Shown: piece after piece, positions 2,956 through 8,986 of the stretch
Layout of the letters: each line of letters starts with the position of its first letter
Numbering within the stretch: the stretch's first letter is position 1
DNA from: Acidobacteriota bacterium
Lineage (GTDB): Bacteria > Acidobacteriota > Terriglobia > Terriglobales > Acidobacteriaceae
DNA length: 8,986 bases
Assembly: GCA_021779695.1 (NCBI GenBank)
Contig: JAJYAE010000180.1
Coordinates: 1-8,986, forward strand
Direction of reading: 5' to 3'
The notes under the pieces: model-generated
Told to the model about the DNA's origin: nothing
Databases searched by the model: none
The model's input: only the letters and a program-made list of their open reading frames with translations
Position numbers and translations under genes: made by a program

Positions 2956-3028
2956 TCAAAAAGACTCCCACCTCAAGGGTACACGCTGGCGGGGAATGCG
3001 TGTGCCGGGGCGCTATGCTGGAGGCACG

Positions 3029-3589
3029 ATGAGCGAAAATGTGGGACGTATCCGTCGTGTGGCGGTGTATTGTGGCTCGGCGAGCGGCGCGGACCCGGTG
3101 TATCTGCAGGAGGCGCGGGCGCTGGGAGTGGCGATTGCGACTGCGGGGATGGGTCTTGTGTATGGCGGGGCGAGCGTGGGGCTGATGGGCGCAGTGGCCG
3201 ATGCGGCGCTGGCCGGTGGCGCGGAGGTGATTGGCGTGCTGCCGGAGGTGCTGGCGGGCAGCGAGATTGCGCACACGGGATTGACGCGGCTGGAGCAGGT
3301 GCCGACGATGCACGCGCGCAAGGCGCGGATGGTGAAGCTGGCCGATGCGTTTCTGATCTTGCCGGGAGGCTACGGAACGCTGGACGAGCTGATGGAAATT
3401 GTGACGTGGGCGCAGTTGAAGATTCACGCCAAGCCGTGCGTGCTGATTAATACGGCGGGGTATTGGAACGGGCTGCTCGATTTTCTGGATACGGCGGTGC
3501 TGGAAGGCTTTCTGAAGGCGAAGAACCGGGCGCTGCTGCGCGTGGCAGGGAGTGCGGCGGAGGCGGTGGCAATGCTGGAGGAGATGTGA
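3029..3589 (+). CDS. LOG-family protein (nucleoside 5'-monophosphate phosphoribohydrolase, TIGR00730 type)
   Basis: A 186-residue protein of normal family length. Order of motifs: Rossmann start VAVYCGSASG (11-20), YGGASVGLMG (45-54), the MHARKARM motif (94-101) and the signature PGGYGTLDE (112-120), whose Glu and Arg/Lys residues act in catalysis in LOG enzymes. Family members hydrolyse the N-glycosidic bond of AMP-like nucleotides; in plants and some bacteria they release free cytokinins. The bacterial role is often unclear, so the name should stay general. The start at 3029 has GGAGG at 3020-3024; the upstream-extended frame reads back into the divergent gene and is rejected. The last ~108 bp occur a second time at 4974-5081. 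Confidence 0.93.
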   Translation: MSENVGRIRRVAVYCGSASGADPVYLQEARALGVAIATAGMGLVYGGASVGLMGAVADAALAGGAEVIGVLPEVLAGSEIAHTGLTRLEQVPTMHARKARMVKLADAFLILPGGYGTLDELMEIVTWAQLKIHAKPCVLINTAGYWNGLLDFLDTAVLEGFLKAKNRALLRVAGSAAEAVAMLEEM

Positions 3590-3594
3590 GGGCG
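3487..3594 (+). repeat. Direct repeat, left copy (3' end of the LOG gene)
   Basis: This copy covers the last 34 codons or so of the LOG gene, its stop and 5 bases beyond. It matches 4974-5081 at 106 of 108 positions, an offset of 1,487 bp. Both differences are synonymous (GAA/GAG, CTG/TTG). Similarity decays immediately outside on both sides. Confidence 0.95.
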
Positions 3595-3644
3595 TTGGGG
3601 ATGGGGCGGTTTCGGGTTAGACGACCAACCGCTAGCGTGCCGGA

Positions 3645-4109
3645 TCAGGCGGAAGTCCACCTTTGCGAAGCCGCAGCTTTGCGGCTCTTCGAGTACACAA
3701 TCAGACCGATGACTACACAAATCCCCATAATTAGAAATGATTGCATTCCCCTCTGCCTTCTGCTGGCAGACCCAAAGTCTTCTAGCGAGTTTGTCGCAGG
3801 ATCGTTGCGATCAAAGTAGACCCGCACTAATTGTCCAATGTATGCGGCTTTCGTTGGTGACGACCATTTGCCGCTGTATTGTGTCCCTCGAATTTGGAAC
3901 GTGTAGGTACATTGGTTGTGATTGGATGGCTCATATCCTGTCACGACACCTGTAGTCGATTGCTGACGTTGGGCTAGAGCGTGGTATTCGTGCGCATTGA
4001 ATGAGACAAAAACTAAGCCAAAAACGAATGGAGCTGTAATGAACAGCGCGTTCCAGGATTTCCAATCGTCATTCGATCGCGGAGAAATCAACCATCTAAA
4101 GAAATTCAC
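3645..4109 (-). CDS. DUF3592-like membrane protein
   Basis: A 154-residue protein with a GTG start. Helix one is about residues 20-38 (NALFITAPFVFGLVFVSF). A soluble beta domain, about 52-112, contains TTGVVTGYE ... YTFQIRGTQYSGKW ... GQLVRVYFDRNDPATNSLEDF, which is the DUF3592 pattern. Helix two is about 124-140 (SFLIMGICVVIGLIVYS), before a basic tail. Function is unknown for this family. The gene is clearly less GC-rich than its surroundings and lies inside the repeat-bounded segment, which points to recent acquisition. There is no Shine-Dalgarno sequence; a promoter 6 bases upstream suggests a leaderless transcript. Its C-terminal codons overlap a 7-bp hairpin (AGCCGCA / TGCGGCT, 3669-3686). 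Confidence 0.72.
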   Translation of the reverse strand: MNFFRWLISPRSNDDWKSWNALFITAPFVFGLVFVSFNAHEYHALAQRQQSTTGVVTGYEPSNHNQCTYTFQIRGTQYSGKWSSPTKAAYIGQLVRVYFDRNDPATNSLEDFGSASRRQRGMQSFLIMGICVVIGLIVYSKSRKAAASQRWTSA

Positions 4110-4115
4110 GAGTCA

Positions 4116-4144
4116 ATTATGACCCTTGGCCTCAGAGCTTTGAA
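4116..4144 (-). promoter_or_regulatory. Promoter of the DUF3592-like gene, leaderless type
   Basis: On the minus strand TTCAAA (4139-4144, 4/6), a 17-bp spacer and CATAAT (4116-4121, 5/6) are followed by only six bases, TGACTC, before the GTG start. Transcription would begin at or next to the start codon. Confidence 0.5.
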
Positions 4145-4309
4145 AGGCACATCCTCGTTCTCCGTCCGAATCACCAGCTATCCGGAGATCGACGGCGTTT
4201 GGGTCTAGCTTGAGGCAGTGGAGCGAATGCGGACGACACAATTGAGCCATGCTTGGGGTGTCCGCCGATACCTGTTTGATCGTCTGCCGGTGTTTGCTCA
4301 TCTCCGATG

Positions 4310-4327
4310 TTCTAATATTTGTTAGAA
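4310..4327. promoter_or_regulatory. Inverted repeat: probable operator of the toxin-antitoxin operon
   Basis: TTCTAA (4310-4315), six bases, TTAGAA (4322-4327): perfect 6-bp arms, centred about 30 bp before the antitoxin start. A/T-rich sequence of -10 type lies within the repeat, so binding there would block transcription. Swapped-hairpin AbrB-type antitoxins usually repress their own operon. A clear -35 box could not be placed. The rest of 4145-4309 shows no gene I can support. Confidence 0.5.
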
Positions 4328-4348
4328 TCTGGGCAGGGAGGGTCTGTC

Positions 4349-4573
4349 ATGCTGAAGCTCAAGCTCACGACGATTGGAAGCTCTGTCGGGGTGATTCTGC
4401 CCAAAGAGGCCCTGGCCCGGCTGAAGGTCGACAAGGGCGACTCCATCTTTCTGACGGAAGAGAAGGATGGGTTCCGGCTAACGCCGTTCGATCCAGCGTT
4501 TGAGAATGCGATGCAGTCGGCGCGCAAGGTGATGAAGAAGCGCCGGAACGCATTGCGCGAGCTCGCAAAGTGA
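4349..4573 (+). CDS. AbrB/MazE-type antitoxin, Doc partner (TIGR02609 type)
   Basis: A 74-residue protein. The N-terminal half is a SpoVT/AbrB DNA-binding fold: KLKLTTIGSSVGVILPKEAL (about 3-22), then LKVDKGDSIFLTEEKDGFRLTPFDP (25-49). The C-terminal part (FENAMQSARKVMKKRRNALRELAK) is a basic amphipathic helix of the kind that holds the toxin. The family is the 'addiction module antidote' found next to Doc toxins. The start at 4349 is fixed by AGGGAGGG at about 4336-4342; a longer frame from 4319 would overlap the operator. The stop overlaps the toxin start. It should neutralise Doc and repress the operon through the inverted repeat upstream. Confidence 0.88.
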   Translation: MLKLKLTTIGSSVGVILPKEALARLKVDKGDSIFLTEEKDGFRLTPFDPAFENAMQSARKVMKKRRNALRELAK

Positions 4574-4956
4574 GAGCCCGCCGATGGGTATGGGTTCCGG
4601 TGGAGGTGGTCCTTGCCATTCACGACGAACAGATTGCAGAGCACGGCGGCATCGGCGGCGTCCGCGATGTGGCAGTGGTGGAATCTGCGCTGGCACGGCC
4701 CCGCAACCTCGTAGCCTACGGGAAACCCGATGCTGCTGCATTGGCGGCAGCGTATGCATTCGGGATCTGCAGCAATCACGGTTTTCTCGATGGCAATAAA
4801 CGGACGGCCTACGTCGTTGCGGAAACGTTCCTTGATCTGAATGGTTACGCGATGGAGGCTTCGGACGAGGCGGTGGTGCACGCAGTGCTTGCAGTCGCAT
4901 CCGGCGGGATGACGGAAGAACAACTGGAGAAGTGGTTCCGATCCTTTATCCGGTAG
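4570..4956 (+). CDS. doc: Doc-type toxin (Fic/Doc family)
   Basis: A 128-residue protein, the usual Doc length. The GTG start at 4570 overlaps the antitoxin stop (GTGA), implying translational coupling, with the antitoxin made first. Visible signatures are the N-terminal GGIGGVRDVAVVESALARP (26-44) and the active-site motif H70-GFL-D74-GN-K77-R78-TA. The Lys after Asn, where AMPylating Fic enzymes have Gly, is the Doc form. P1 Doc phosphorylates elongation factor Tu and halts translation. The motif is intact, so the toxin looks functional. Twelve bases after its stop the second LOG 3' copy begins. Confidence 0.93.
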   Translation: MRARRWVWVPVEVVLAIHDEQIAEHGGIGGVRDVAVVESALARPRNLVAYGKPDAAALAAAYAFGICSNHGFLDGNKRTAYVVAETFLDLNGYAMEASDEAVVHAVLAVASGGMTEEQLEKWFRSFIR

Positions 4957-4967
4957 CTGGCAGGCTT

Positions 4968-5076
4968 GATTTTGGATACGGCGGTGCTGGAGGGCTTTTT
5001 GAAGGCGAAGAACCGGGCGCTGCTGCGCGTGGCAGGGAGTGCGGCGGAGGCGGTGGCAATGCTGGAGGAGATGTGA
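4968..5076 (+). pseudogene. 3' remnant of the LOG gene
   Basis: The frame reads LDTAVLEGFLKAKNRALLRV, then the same last 13 residues and stop as the intact LOG protein, about residues 153-186. There is no start codon with a ribosome site and no upstream part of the gene. At the left edge, GATTTT-GG replaces GATTTTCTGG of the intact gene, so two bases are lost at the joint. It is either the original tail displaced by the accessory segment or the tail brought in by it. Confidence 0.85.
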
Positions 5077-5081
5077 GGGCG
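4974..5081 (+). repeat. Direct repeat, right copy (LOG 3' end)
   Basis: Partner of 3487-3594: 106/108 identical and in the same orientation. Together the copies bound the segment carrying the DUF3592-like gene and the toxin-antitoxin pair. Confidence 0.95.
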
Positions 5082-5087
5082 GCGGGG

Positions 5088-5115
5088 TTTGGAAAGGCAT
5101 TGGCTGGACTATAAT
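5088..5115 (+). promoter_or_regulatory. Promoter of ssb
   Basis: A perfect TATAAT at 5110-5115 is preceded 16 bp upstream by TTTGGA (5088-5093); TTGGAA one base later would be spaced by 15. The start would be near 5122, giving a leader of about 80 nt. The leader contains a hairpin, GCTTCC (5119-5124) / GGAAGC (5145-5150). The promoter begins only 7 bp after the right LOG repeat, so ssb transcription is independent of the accessory segment. Confidence 0.55.
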
Positions 5116-5202
5116 CAAGCTTCCGAAAGCAGCGGGTTGCGCTGGGAAGCGAGCCGTGAGGCAATGGAAACCTGACCAATTGAAGGATGGGAGAGCGCGA
5201 GC

Positions 5203-5673
5203 ATGGCGAAGTCAGTGAATAAGGTATTTCTGCTGGGGAATGTGGGCAAGGACCCGGAGATTCGTTCGACGCCGAGCGGGACGACGGTGGCGCAGTTTAC
5301 GCTGGCGACGAGCGACCGGCAGAAGGACGCGCAGGGTAACTGGCAGGACCGCACGGAGTGGCACAACCTGGTGGCGTTTACGAAGCTGGCGGAGATTGTG
5401 CGCGACTACGTGAAGAAGGGCTCGAAGCTGTATGTGGAGGGCAAGATTCAGACGCGGTCATGGGACGACAAGGAGACGGGCGCGAAGCGGTATCGGACGG
5501 AGATTATTGTGAACGACATTTCGCTGCTGTCAGGACGCGAAGAAGGCGCGGGCGGCTACAGCCGGAGCGCGGGCGCGTCGAGCACGACGGCGAGCTTTGA
5601 CCAGCGGCCTGCGGGCGGACAGGATGAGTACGCGCAGTCGTCGGAGATATCGGACGACGATATTCCGTTCTAG
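5203..5673 (+). CDS. ssb: Single-stranded DNA-binding protein
   Basis: A 156-residue protein. The OB fold occupies residues 1-110 with family motifs VNKVFLLGNVGKDPEIRSTPSG, VAQFTLATSD, RTEWHNLVAF, YVKKGSKLYVEGKIQTRSW and the strand ending VNDISLL. A flexible Gly/Ser/Ala/Gln-rich linker follows (114-148). The acidic tip DDDIPF binds DNA-repair and replication partners. SSB protects single-stranded DNA in replication, recombination and repair. The ATG start at 5203 has AAGGATGGGAG 9-20 bases ahead. It stands alone rather than between rpsF and rpsR, which is where many bacteria keep an ssb copy; a second copy may exist elsewhere. Confidence 0.97.
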   Translation: MAKSVNKVFLLGNVGKDPEIRSTPSGTTVAQFTLATSDRQKDAQGNWQDRTEWHNLVAFTKLAEIVRDYVKKGSKLYVEGKIQTRSWDDKETGAKRYRTEIIVNDISLLSGREEGAGGYSRSAGASSTTASFDQRPAGGQDEYAQSSEISDDDIPF

Positions 5674-5698
5674 TCCGGCAACGAAGACAGTTGTGGCC

Positions 5699-5724
5699 AA
5701 GACCCTCCGATGGCGGAGGGTCTT
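5699..5724 (+). terminator. Terminator between ssb and rsmI (convergent)
   Basis: The 11-bp perfect stem AAGACCCTCCG / CGGAGGGTCTT has the 4-nt loop ATGG. It starts 25 bp after the ssb stop. The bases after it on the plus strand (CGTGTTGTG) are only partly T-rich, and the minus side lacks T's, so it may need help from Rho. It probably serves both converging genes, since rsmI ends at 5739. Confidence 0.75.
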
Positions 5725-5738
5725 CGTGTTGTGCGGGG

Positions 5739-6725
5739 CTATTTGCGTTTGGCGCGCTCGCGCTGGAGTTCGCGATAGAGCTCACTTTTGGACTGGCCGG
5801 TTTCGCGTGCGAGGCGCTTGAGGGCGTCCTTTTCTTCGAGGCCTAACTCGGAATGCAGAGTGGCGATGCGGGCGCTGATTGATTCCGAGGTCCGAGAATC
5901 CGGACCTGGGGTATCGGCGGAACGAATGGGGGCTTCGACGAGGAGGACGAATTCGCCGCGGATGCGGTCGCGATCGGAGAGGGCGCTGCGGAGTTCGGCG
6001 ACGGTGCCGCGGAGAAACTCTTCGTGCAGCTTGGTCAGCTCGCGTGCGAGGACGATGCGCAGGGCGGGACCGAAGACCGATTCGAGATCGGCGAGTGTGT
6101 CGGCGATGCGGTGCGGCGCCTCATAGAAGATGAGCGTCTGCACTGCTTCGCGCGGAGCGGCGGCGAGGTCTTCAAGGCGGGAGCGGCGCGCGCCGGCTTT
6201 TTCCGGCAGGAAGCCGAGGAAGGTGAATTCCGCGGTGGGCAGGCCGGAGGCGATGAGGGCGGTGAGTGCAGCGCTGGCTCCGGGGATGGGGACGACAGGG
6301 ACACCGGCGGCGATGGCCTCTGCGGCGAGCAGCGCGCCGGGATCGCTGATGCCGGGCAGGCCCGCGTCAGAGACGACAGCGATGGCAGCGCCGCGCTGGA
6401 TTTCCGCAATGAGCTCGGCGGCGCGGGCGCGCTCATTGTGCTGATGACAGCTGACGGTGGGCGTGTCGATGCCGTAGTGGTTGAGCAGCTTCTGCGTCTG
6501 GCGGGTGTCTTCGCAGGCGATGCGTCGGGCGCGGCGGAGGATGTCGAGGGCGCGAAGGGTGATGTCGCCGAGGTTGCCGATGGGAGTGGCGACGAGGTAG
6601 AGACTGGGTGCGAGCGGGGTCTCGCCGGAGGTGGTCCGCGGTTTGTGCTCTCCCACCTTAGCTGATTCGCCAGAAGCGCCAATCGCCGAAGGTGGGGCAC
6701 ACGGAGCTTGAAGATCGCCGGACAT
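5739..6725 (-). CDS. rsmI: 16S rRNA (cytidine-1402 2'-O)-methyltransferase RsmI
   Basis: As called, a 328-residue protein (E. coli RsmI has 286). The tetrapyrrole-methylase-like domain begins at SLYLVATPIGNLGDITLRAL (41-60), followed by CEDTRQTQKLL (71-81), SDAGLPGISDPG (119-130), IPGASAALTALIASGLP (147-163) and IFYEAPHRI (199-207); the C-terminal helix region is EEKDALKRLARETGQSKSELYREL. It uses S-adenosylmethionine to methylate the ribose of C1402 in the decoding centre. The first 40 residues are not family-like and encode a hairpin repeat (6645-6700). I chose ATG 6725, 7 bp after the upstream gene's stop; ATG 6749 and TTG 6758 would overlap it, and GTG 6656 after the repeat is also possible. 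Likely co-transcribed with the M50-like gene. Confidence 0.93.
   Translation of the reverse strand: MSGDLQAPCAPPSAIGASGESAKVGEHKPRTTSGETPLAPSLYLVATPIGNLGDITLRALDILRRARRIACEDTRQTQKLLNHYGIDTPTVSCHQHNERARAAELIAEIQRGAAIAVVSDAGLPGISDPGALLAAEAIAAGVPVVPIPGASAALTALIASGLPTAEFTFLGFLPEKAGARRSRLEDLAAAPREAVQTLIFYEAPHRIADTLADLESVFGPALRIVLARELTKLHEEFLRGTVAELRSALSDRDRIRGEFVLLVEAPIRSADTPGPDSRTSESISARIATLHSELGLEEKDALKRLARETGQSKSELYRELQRERAKRK
6645..6700. repeat. Hairpin repeat (REP-like) in the 5' end of rsmI
   Basis: On the plus strand, GTGCTCTCCCACCTTA starts the element and AAGGTGGGGCAC ends it; the arms pair over CCCACCTT/AAGGTGGG, with further partly paired inner bases (GATT/AATC). The ends have the same layout as the repeat inside rsmD (8374-8414): GTxCxCTCCCACC ... 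GGTGGGGCAC. It is translated as part of the atypical RsmI N-terminus. Confidence 0.65.
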
Positions 6726-6732
6726 GGGCGGG

Positions 6733-7845
6733 CTATCCGCTGGCCGCATCGTGCTCAATGCGGCGCTGCTCGGCGAGCAGGGACATGGAGCTCATGAGGT
6801 TTTGAACGCTGACGATGCCGACGACCCGGCCACTGTCTGTGACGGGAATGAGGGAGAGCCCGTGGCCGGCGTTGAGGCGGCGGATGGTGGCGCCGAGGGT
6901 GTCTTCAGGTCGGGCGACCTGGAAGGCGCGGGACATGACGGACTGGATGTAGCCGTTGCCGTCGTTGCGGAGCGCGTCCACGATGCGTTGACGGGAGACG
7001 ATGCCGACGAGCTCGGGTCCGCGGACGACGGGAAAATCGTCCTGGAGCGAGTGGATGCAGCGGGTGAGAGCGTCGGCGAGGGTGTCTGATGGCGAGAGGG
7101 TGGCGAAGTCAGTGAGCATGACTTCGCGCATGTGGACGGTGTCGACGACGGACTGGAAGAAGACGCCCTGGTCTTCAATCTGCGCGCCGATCATGATGAA
7201 GAAGCCGGCGATGACGAGCCATGGAGAGTGGAAGAGCATGCCTGCGATCATGGCGGCGAGAGCGAGGAGCTGGCCGAGCCCACCGGCGGCGCGGCCGGCT
7301 GGGGCGAGGCCGTGGTTGCGGGCAAAGCTGCCGCGGAGCAGGCGGCCACCGTCGAGCGGGTAGGCTGGGAGCAGGTGGAGTGCGGCGAGGCCGAGCTGGA
7401 ACCAGACCATGCTGCGAAGCAGATAGTCGGCGGTGATCCAGGGCTGGGCGAAGAGCTGGATGGAGGGCCCGGCGGCGCCGAGGAGAGCGGCACCGAGAGC
7501 GACGGCCGTGGCGGCGTTGGCGAGCGGGCCGGCAAAGGCCAGGGCGAATTGTCCGGAGCCCTGGTTGGAGTTGTCCTGGCTCTCTGGGTTGGCGTAGGCG
7601 AAGAGGCCGCCGATGGGGAGCAGGAGAATGGCGCGCAGGCGCAGGCCGAACCACGCGGCGGTGAGCAAGCGCGCGATTTCACGCACGAGCACAGCGAGGA
7701 CGAGTACGAAGAAGAGGCCGAGGCCACGCAGAACACCGCTATTGCCGCTCAGCAGCAGACAGACTGCGGCCAGCAGCGGAAAGAAGGCATGGACGCGGAG
7801 TTCAACGCCCATCCAGCGGCCCATTGGGAGTGACCAGCCTCGCAT
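6733..7845 (-). CDS. Site-2-protease-like (M50) membrane protein with CBS pair; protease motif degenerate
   Basis: A 370-residue protein. The N-terminal half has five to six hydrophobic helices and the layout of M50B proteases with C-terminal CBS domains: GRWMGVELRVH (9-19), the helix that normally carries HExxH (about 43-63), LLPIGGLF (75-82), FAGPLAN (104-110) and LLPAYPLDGGRLLRG (158-172), which keeps the third metal ligand Asp165. CBS domains span about 238-292 and 299-354 and usually bind adenine nucleotides. The HExxH motif reads R55-E56-I57-A58-R59, so both His ligands are absent. Either it is a pseudoprotease or it works by another route. No Shine-Dalgarno sequence precedes the ATG; TACAAT (7852-7857) lies six bases upstream, suggesting leaderless transcription. 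rsmI follows closely. Confidence 0.85.
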   Translation of the reverse strand: MRGWSLPMGRWMGVELRVHAFFPLLAAVCLLLSGNSGVLRGLGLFFVLVLAVLVREIARLLTAAWFGLRLRAILLLPIGGLFAYANPESQDNSNQGSGQFALAFAGPLANAATAVALGAALLGAAGPSIQLFAQPWITADYLLRSMVWFQLGLAALHLLPAYPLDGGRLLRGSFARNHGLAPAGRAAGGLGQLLALAAMIAGMLFHSPWLVIAGFFIMIGAQIEDQGVFFQSVVDTVHMREVMLTDFATLSPSDTLADALTRCIHSLQDDFPVVRGPELVGIVSRQRIVDALRNDGNGYIQSVMSRAFQVARPEDTLGATIRRLNAGHGLSLIPVTDSGRVVGIVSVQNLMSSMSLLAEQRRIEHDAASG

Positions 7846-7901: not shown

Positions 7902-8561
7902 ATGCGCATCATTGCGGGACAGTATCGGTCGCGGGTTCTGGAGGCACCGGTGGGGATGTCAACGCGGCCGACGAGCGACCGGCTGCGGGAGACGCTGTTC
8001 AACGTGCTGGCGCCGCGGATGGAGGGATGCGCGTTTGCGGATTTGTATGCAGGCTCGGGAGCGGTGGGGTTGGAGGCACTGAGCCGCGGCGCGGCGCGTG
8101 TGGTGTGTGTGGAGCGCGGGCCAGCGGCGCTGAAGGCGCTGCGCGGGAATCTGGCGCGGCTGGGCGTGAAAGAGGGTGTGCGCGTGGAAGCGGCGAGTGT
8201 GGCGGCTTGGCTGAAGCGGGCACAGGGGCCGTGGGATATCGTGTTTCTCGATCCGCCGTACGACGCGGAGGAAGAGTATGAGCGCGCGCTGGGTGCGCTG
8301 GGCGGCGGGGCGGTTCTTAGCAGAAGCCACGATTCGACTCCTCACGCAGAAGTGAATCCTGGCGGGGAGATCGTACCCTCCCACCCTAAACGCGATGCGT
8401 TTAGGGTGGGGCACCCAATTCTGGCGGAGGGCGCGGTGGTGATTGCCGAGCATCGAAGAAAGATGAAGCTGGAGGATCGGTATGGCGGGTTGCGGCGCGT
8501 GCGGCTGCTGGAGCAGGGCGATGCGGCGCTGAGTTTTTATGAGACAGCTGTCAGCTGTTAG
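7902..8561 (+). CDS. rsmD: 16S rRNA (guanine-966 N2)-methyltransferase RsmD, with an in-frame repeat insertion
   Basis: A 219-residue protein (E. coli RsmD has 198). Motifs: MRIIAGQYRSRVLEAP (1-16), TRPTSDRLRETLFNVL (21-36), the SAM-binding ADLYAGSGAVGLEALSRGA (46-64), VERG (70-73) and the catalytic DPPY (117-120). The family C-terminus resumes at LAEGAVVIAEHRRK (174-187). Between them, residues 139-173 are encoded by a 105-bp insertion holding hairpin repeats. Removing it restores AVLAEGAVVIAEHRR exactly. The last residues, TAVSC, and the stop come from a heptamer repeat. The ATG at 7902 has no ribosome site, and TATGCT lies eight bases upstream. The gene is divergent from the M50-like gene with 56 bp between starts. 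Activity with the insertion is uncertain, but the frame is intact. Confidence 0.93.
   Translation: MRIIAGQYRSRVLEAPVGMSTRPTSDRLRETLFNVLAPRMEGCAFADLYAGSGAVGLEALSRGAARVVCVERGPAALKALRGNLARLGVKEGVRVEAASVAAWLKRAQGPWDIVFLDPPYDAEEEYERALGALGGGAVLSRSHDSTPHAEVNPGGEIVPSHPKRDAFRVGHPILAEGAVVIAEHRRKMKLEDRYGGLRRVRLLEQGDAALSFYETAVSC
8314..8418. repeat. 105-bp two-hairpin repeat element inserted in rsmD
   Basis: TTCT occurs at 8314-8317 and again at 8419-8422, bounding exactly 105 bp, which is 35 codons. Hairpin one is imperfect: GATTC-G-ACTCCT and AGAAGTGAATC, about 8331-8358. Hairpin two is a perfect 14-bp stem, 8380-8393 against 8397-8410, with a 3-nt loop GAT. It is flanked by GTACCCT and GCACCC. The 4-bp direct repeat is compatible with a small target duplication, as for a MITE or REP-type element. 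A related element lies in rsmI. Confidence 0.8.
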
Positions 8562-8592: not shown

Positions 8593-8986
8593 TTGAAGAA
8601 CAGGATGCAGTGGATTGCGTGTGCGGCGCTGGGATGGGCCGCGATGGGCTTTGGTCAGACAAGTGCTTCGTGGGGGATTGGGCCGTGGACGCGGCCAGCC
8701 GCTGGCAATCCGGTGGTGACGCCGAATGCGGCATCGACGTTTATGGACCCGATTGCGAAGAAGCCGGTGCAGTGGGAGGCGCTGCACACGTTCAACCCGG
8801 CGGCGGTGGTGCGCGGCGGCAAGGTGTTCGTGCTGTATCGCGCAGAGGACAACTCGGGCACGATGGAGATTGGCGGGCACACGTCGCGGCTGGGGTTGGC
8901 GGAGAGCAAGGACGGTGTTCACTTCACGCGCAGGGGCGAGCCGGTGTTTTATCCGGCGGAAGACGATCAGAAGGCGCGCGAGTGGC
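8593..8986 (+). CDS. Secreted GH130-family glycosidase/phosphorylase, N-terminal part
   Basis: The gene runs off the right edge; about 131 codons are seen. I prefer the TTG at 8593 (MKNRMQWIACAALGWAAMGF), because AAAGGAA lies five bases ahead and it gives a basic residue before the signal-peptide core; ATG 8605 is the alternative. After the signal peptide come VQWEALHTFNPAAVVRGGKV, VLYRAEDNSG, GGHTSRLGLAESKDGVHFTR and EPVFYPAEDDQKAREW. These are the first blades of a five-bladed propeller of GH130 type; the family's GGCEDPR segment would follow just outside. Members phosphorolyse or hydrolyse beta-mannosides; the signal peptide suggests an exported member. Substrate cannot be assigned. Confidence 0.8.
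   Translation, partial: MKNRMQWIACAALGWAAMGFGQTSASWGIGPWTRPAAGNPVVTPNAASTFMDPIAKKPVQWEALHTFNPAAVVRGGKVFVLYRAEDNSGTMEIGGHTSRLGLAESKDGVHFTRRGEPVFYPAEDDQKAREW

Follow-up and report, generated by a model that had tools for sequence, protein, structure and literature searches.

How did the 3' end of a LOG-type gene come to stand twice, on both sides of a toxin-antitoxin (TA) pair, and by which route did the DNA between the two copies arrive? These questions are raised by a locus in a stretch of Acidobacteriaceae DNA of 8,986 nucleotides, which was analysed at its full length and is referred to below as the window.

The repeated LOG end and the genes between its copies

The LOG-type gene (Lysine_decarbox / TIGR00730) is located at 3029..3589 on the forward strand and is intact; the LOG equivalog profile NF058542 matches it below its cut-off, with 124.6 of 300 bits. 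Direct comparison within the window showed that the last 108 bp of this gene (3487-3594) recur at 4974-5081, with 106 of 108 positions identical and a spacing of 1,487 bp. Both mismatches (3505 A / 4992 G and 3512 C / 4999 T) are synonymous in the LOG frame, affecting the third position of GAA/GAG and the first position of CTG/TTG, and the longest exact block common to the copies measures 82 bp and ends at 3594. With gaps allowed, the match covers 3475..3600 (copy 1, the 3' end of LOG) and 4964..5087 (copy 2, an orphan LOG tail), both on the forward strand, at 94% and 194 bits. As 20 single-base shuffles of the window gave at most 37.4 bits, the repeat is not a product of chance. The core had been described in the original prediction as a repeat of ~108 bp, and its identity, spacing and synonymous differences were all reproduced; the homology itself reaches some 11 bases further left of 3487, in weaker form, to about 3475. 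Copy 2 carries a 2-base deletion near its left edge, inside this extension.

An assembly artefact could be suspected here, since the source appears to be a draft or metagenome contig and the exact repeat is 82 bp long. We regard this as very improbable. The copies differ by two bases and a 2-base deletion, which argues that copy 2 has reads of its own, the junction of the TA pair with copy 2 is found in no relative fetched, and similar structures stand in other assemblies (genomes G183 and G263, described below).

Between the copies, a DUF3592-like membrane gene is encoded on the reverse strand (3645..4109), convergent with LOG. Its Pfam match (E 7.2e-5, 23.8 bits) lies just under the curated cut-off of 25.3, and relatives were found in 10 of 250 family genomes, the best at 34% identity. 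An antitoxin of the doc_partner type with an AbrB/MazE fold (4349..4573, forward strand; Pfam MazE_antitoxin, TIGR02609 doc_partner) and a Doc-type toxin with the motif NHGFLDGNKR (4570..4956, forward strand; Pfam Fic/DOC, TIGR01550) complete the cargo. These two adjacent genes form one operon with an overlap of 4 bases (GTGA), and both profiles pass their curated cut-offs (73 of 55.9 and 60.6 of 38.65 bits). PDB relatives of the toxin are 3k33, 3dd7 and 3kh2, 'Death on curing protein', with E 1e-9 to 2e-8. Relatives of the pair occur in 109 of 250 family genomes, and it is an ordinary member of the doc_partner/Doc type II TA pairs (TIGR02609, TIGR01550), in which only the placement is unusual. 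Downstream of copy 2, ssb was identified by profile match at 5203..5673 on the forward strand.

LOG, ssb and the outer flanks have a G+C content of 0.65, 0.62 and 0.67, respectively, whereas the values for the DUF3592 part, the spacer and the TA genes are 0.50, 0.53 and 0.59; most of the drop falls in the DUF3592 half. A profile scan of the insert genes returned DUF3592, MazE-type and Fic/DOC matches only, and no integrase, transposase or recombinase. Terminal repeats were not found at the segment ends either, where the best inverted and direct matches were equalled by 217 of 300 shuffled pairs, which argues against a classical transposon or insertion sequence. On all these points, the gene content, the reduced G+C and the lack of mobility genes and short terminal repeats, the first reading of the sequence is borne out.

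Two other features of the window were recorded. A tRNA-Thr (cgt) gene is located at 995-1070 on the minus strand, 2 kb from LOG, and no link to the segment was seen. A perfect inverted repeat of 14+14 bases with a 3-base loop is found at 8380-8410, within an open frame taken as rsmD, and a piece partly similar to it stands near the start of the frame taken as rsmI (about 6674-6700); it is perhaps a small palindromic repeat inserted in frame.

Empty sites and the age of the duplication

LOG loci were sampled by a LOG protein search, which gave 80, and by a DNA search of 250 family genomes, which gave 30 more. The nearest relatives by LOG protein are Acidobacteriaceae and Acidobacteria metagenome genomes. 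In six fetched genomes (G057, G385, G001, G263, G305 and G002) LOG is followed by ssb, while relatives with other genes after LOG are uninformative on this site. The 1.4-kb segment is absent from all six, in a comparison of species, not strains, and can thus be identified as an insertion. In these genomes 147-222 bp separate SSB from the last LOG residue in the alignment. In the three for which the DNA was aligned (G057, G001 and G002), a single LOG tail leads straight into a spacer with a conserved TATAAT-containing block before ssb. This block, ggctggactataatcaagctt, is located at about 5102-5122 of the window, upstream of ssb, and is nearly unchanged in the three empty sites; in the window it belongs to the ancestral LOG-ssb spacer that follows copy 2. 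An empty site of this kind, with one LOG tail running directly into the ssb leader, had been anticipated in the original prediction.

The inner 1,366 bp of the segment were also searched in the six genomes and in G183. Four gave no match, the cargo DNA being absent from G057, G385 and G001, and in G263, G305 and G002 only the TA part matches (76-78%), at other places. Downstream of the site, the window has 66 bp (5673-5739) between ssb and rsmI (named by eye), where G001, G385 and G263 (L001, L201, L204) have 3.8-4.0 kb.

The duplication could be dated relative to G057 and G385. Copy 1 has 12 differences from these genomes within 122 aligned positions, and copy 2 has the window state at all 12, which places the duplication after the divergence from both genomes. 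At the two positions where the copies disagree, G057 and G385 agree with copy 1; the substitutions, together with the 2-base deletion, therefore arose in the orphan copy on the ssb side, and the synonymous nature of both is a coincidence and not a sign of selection. The duplication is recent, and copy 2 is a non-coding, drifting copy.

These shared states bear on two other origins of the repeat. Copy 2 adjoins the ssb leader, and the original prediction had named an ancient, conserved part of that leader as a reading that would speak against an insertion; a similar picture would result if an old tandem copy of LOG had been lost except for its tail. For the window such an origin is rejected as scarcely credible, since both copies share lineage-specific states and the aligned relatives have one tail only, although the G183 case, at 85% identity, is less clear. 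A homologous-recombination product was the alternative named in the original prediction. Campbell-type integration, in which a circle already carrying a LOG tail would have recombined once with the chromosomal tail by homologous recombination, would yield exactly the observed structure with copies 98% identical. It is nevertheless unlikely: it shifts the question to how the circle obtained the LOG tail of this same lineage, with 12 lineage-specific states in common, and ~110 bp of homology is short for RecA. Assembly error aside, it is almost certain that DNA was recently inserted here and that a gene end was duplicated.

Duplicated gene ends elsewhere in the family

Among the 110 LOG loci, which are not all distinct genes, 97 showed no second copy of the LOG end, 12 showed short matches (18-42 bases) and one, in G183, showed a longer duplication. 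In this genome (L166, G183:C25, minus strand) the LOG tail at 2009-2169 and the orphan copy at 617-777 share 161 bp at 85% identity, with a 339-aa DUF7544 membrane gene, convergent with LOG, between them. Other cargo between duplicated LOG tails had been expected from the first reading, and G183 provides an example. For G183 no empty counterpart was found, the sequence past the orphan tail being unmatched in three relatives and in a fourth with a more distant LOG, and the DUF7544 gene has a second copy elsewhere in the same genome, so that it is the repeat itself that carries this case. The orphan tails of the window and of G183 have the same left edge: each starts with the codon for the second Leu in GLLxFLD, which is codon 149 of either protein when counting from 0, and each extends slightly past the stop codon.

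Such tails are rare. A LOG-tail profile, with 16 candidates per genome scored, matched 257 of 398 family genomes among the matches listed, and full relisting of the 64 genomes with at least two matches gave two tails close together only in G183, which corresponds to one of the 398 family genomes searched. A class-level sample of 250 genomes, which overlaps in part with this set and of which 53 gave matches at E 1e-5, contained no further orphan LOG tail.

The LOG tail is not the sole gene end used, as ferrochelatase tails are also duplicated. In G263 the 3' end of the ferrochelatase gene is present twice (L223, G263:C27, 8917-9028 / 9954-10066; 113 bp, 87%, 1,037 bp apart), and the copies enclose a 250-aa gene that belongs to no Pfam family. 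G305 is 93% identical to G263 over 5,066 bp up to the ferrochelatase stop codon and from there passes without interruption into what stands after the second copy in G263. Therefore G305 represents the empty state for the G263 insert; an empty counterpart is known for the window and G263 inserts only. G305 has a repeat of its own (L222, G305:C306, reverse complement, 5016-5213 / 8687-8885; 199 bp, 95%, 3,671 bp apart), in which the final 51 bp of the ferrochelatase gene are joined by sequence from downstream, part of it palindrome-like and dispersed. Between its copies stand three genes: one for an ABC transporter, one of 569 aa and one of the RHH type. Both ferrochelatase repeats lie ~3 kb from the TA homologue of their genomes, and among the genes scanned in the G183, G263 and G305 inserts there was no integrase. 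If the same process is at work, the duplication lengths are 108-125 bp in the window, 161 bp in G183, 113 bp in G263 and 199 bp in G305.

These cases allow a minimal non-autonomous island to be weighed, moved in trans by a site-specific recombinase and using the LOG tail as its attachment site, with the gene end rebuilt upon entry as by prophage e14 at icd. According to the accessible text of PMC6379469, e14 supplies the icd 3' end and leaves a 163-bp icd' copy. There, as in the window, the gene preceding the element has two copies of its 3' end; the window insert differs in being 1.4 kb in size, not a prophage and without integrase. This precedent and the LOG duplications, which with different cargo start at the same codon and end just past the stop, make such an island a serious, if unlikely, candidate. 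Against it, no integrase is encoded in the window insert or among the scanned genes of the other inserts, and the left edges, which would mark a crossover core, agree in the two LOG cases but differ by about 60 bp between the two ferrochelatase cases. Searches of 50,697 phage records and of 72,556 plasmid records found no LOG tail, and 17 LOG-tail pattern matches in viral contigs gave none that was confirmed, both with short queries of low power. The rarity of orphan LOG tails points the same way. The LOG tail as an element's attachment site, as originally predicted, is consequently weakened by the ferrochelatase cases, this rarity and the lack of an integrase in the inserts.

In a wider form of the idea, very small non-autonomous insertions would form a family in the Acidobacteriaceae. 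They would target the 3' ends of genes (LOG, ferrochelatase) and restore the end on entry; with a cargo of one to three genes, frequently of the membrane or addiction type, they would be moved in trans by a putative recombinase. We consider this quite improbable; if it were true, the codon common to the two LOG events would be the recognition core.

Duplication is not a habit of the doc_partner/Doc family, since in 45 homologous TA loci (34 distinct pairs) no direct repeat of at least 50 bp bracketed the pair. At E 1e-3, any bracketing direct repeat was found in three of the 45 loci. In L148 the repeat is 45 bp long, at 84% identity and 11.6 kb apart. In L223 and L222, from the related genomes G263 and G305, a piece of 47-48 bp just upstream of the TA pair resembles codons of a gene which we take, by eye, to be hemE (uroporphyrinogen decarboxylase), at 87% identity in L223 (4954-5000 / 7018-7064) and 77% in L222 (reverse complement, 944-991 / 3014-3061). 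A search round hemE did not find an empty counterpart for these pieces.

As a base rate, contigs selected independently of these genes, about 1.44 Mb in total, were examined, 960 kb from G305, G263, G219, G240 and G122 and 479 kb from G385 and G001, with pairs inside one ORF set aside. No clear orphan gene tail was found in them, which indicates that these events are rare or local.

A probable insertion with long target duplication

The explanation that we hold to be probable, if by a narrow measure, is that a fragment with the DUF3592-like gene and the Doc TA pair was inserted at the LOG 3' end and that 108-125 bp of target now stand on both sides, as a long target duplication. Capture of the fragment would have required no dedicated recombinase: at a fork that had broken or stalled, the ends would have overlapped by ~110 bp, and repair synthesis would have copied this overlap onto both sides. 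LOG would have stayed intact because the overlap included its stop codon. As an addiction module, the TA pair may favour the retention of the insert.

A long target duplication is consistent with the empty states, the polarity of the copies, the absence of terminal repeats and of a recombinase among the scanned insert genes, and the unequal duplication lengths elsewhere; the G263 insert with its empty counterpart in G305 has the same geometry. Against it, the two LOG duplications share their first codon, for which we estimate a chance of about 1 in 100 with arbitrary break ends, an agreement noticed after the fact. The base-rate contigs, with no clear orphan gene tail, and the 34 distinct TA loci, with no bracketing repeat of 50 bp or more, also count against it, and the relatives compared are species, not strains.

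Nobusato et al. (2000) and Furuta et al. (2010) are said to have described insertion with long target duplication of restriction-modification (R-M) systems. As far as the accessible text of the reports goes, the insertion of some R-M systems is accompanied by target duplications that are long, on the order of 100 bp, and vary in length (PMC3874152), and such insertions occur in Helicobacter and other genomes (PMC1643837, PMC3031569 and PMC4978471, citing Nobusato 2000 and Furuta 2010). The likeness to these accounts consists of a block absent from a related genome, a variable direct repeat of ~100 bp copied from the target, no transposase and addiction cargo. In the window, by contrast, the cargo is a TA pair with a membrane gene, the host belongs to the Acidobacteriaceae, a gene 3' end is duplicated and the comparison is between species. 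The insert works like an R-M long target duplication and is not an R-M member, its cargo being DUF3592 and doc_partner/Doc. A LOG gene as an insertion site, or long target duplication in Acidobacteria, was found in no report in the open-access literature searched, which is a weak statement.

The locus bears on the question of how addiction modules spread when no mobile element is visible. Outside the R-M systems, a TA pair whose insertion can be dated, carries a long target duplication and has its empty state in six related species would be a clean case. If the structures in G183, G263 and G305 share the process, the family is a place to find what makes such duplications, and orphan gene tails are a simple signature to search for.

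Some other repeats were observed in these genomes. In L230 (G305:C7) a direct repeat of 172-174 bp at 97% identity (83-254 / 879-1052) surrounds a 155-aa ORF and is not dispersed in the searched G305 and G263 contigs, and weaker repeat pairs are present in L260, L293, L309 and G219 in the base-rate contigs.
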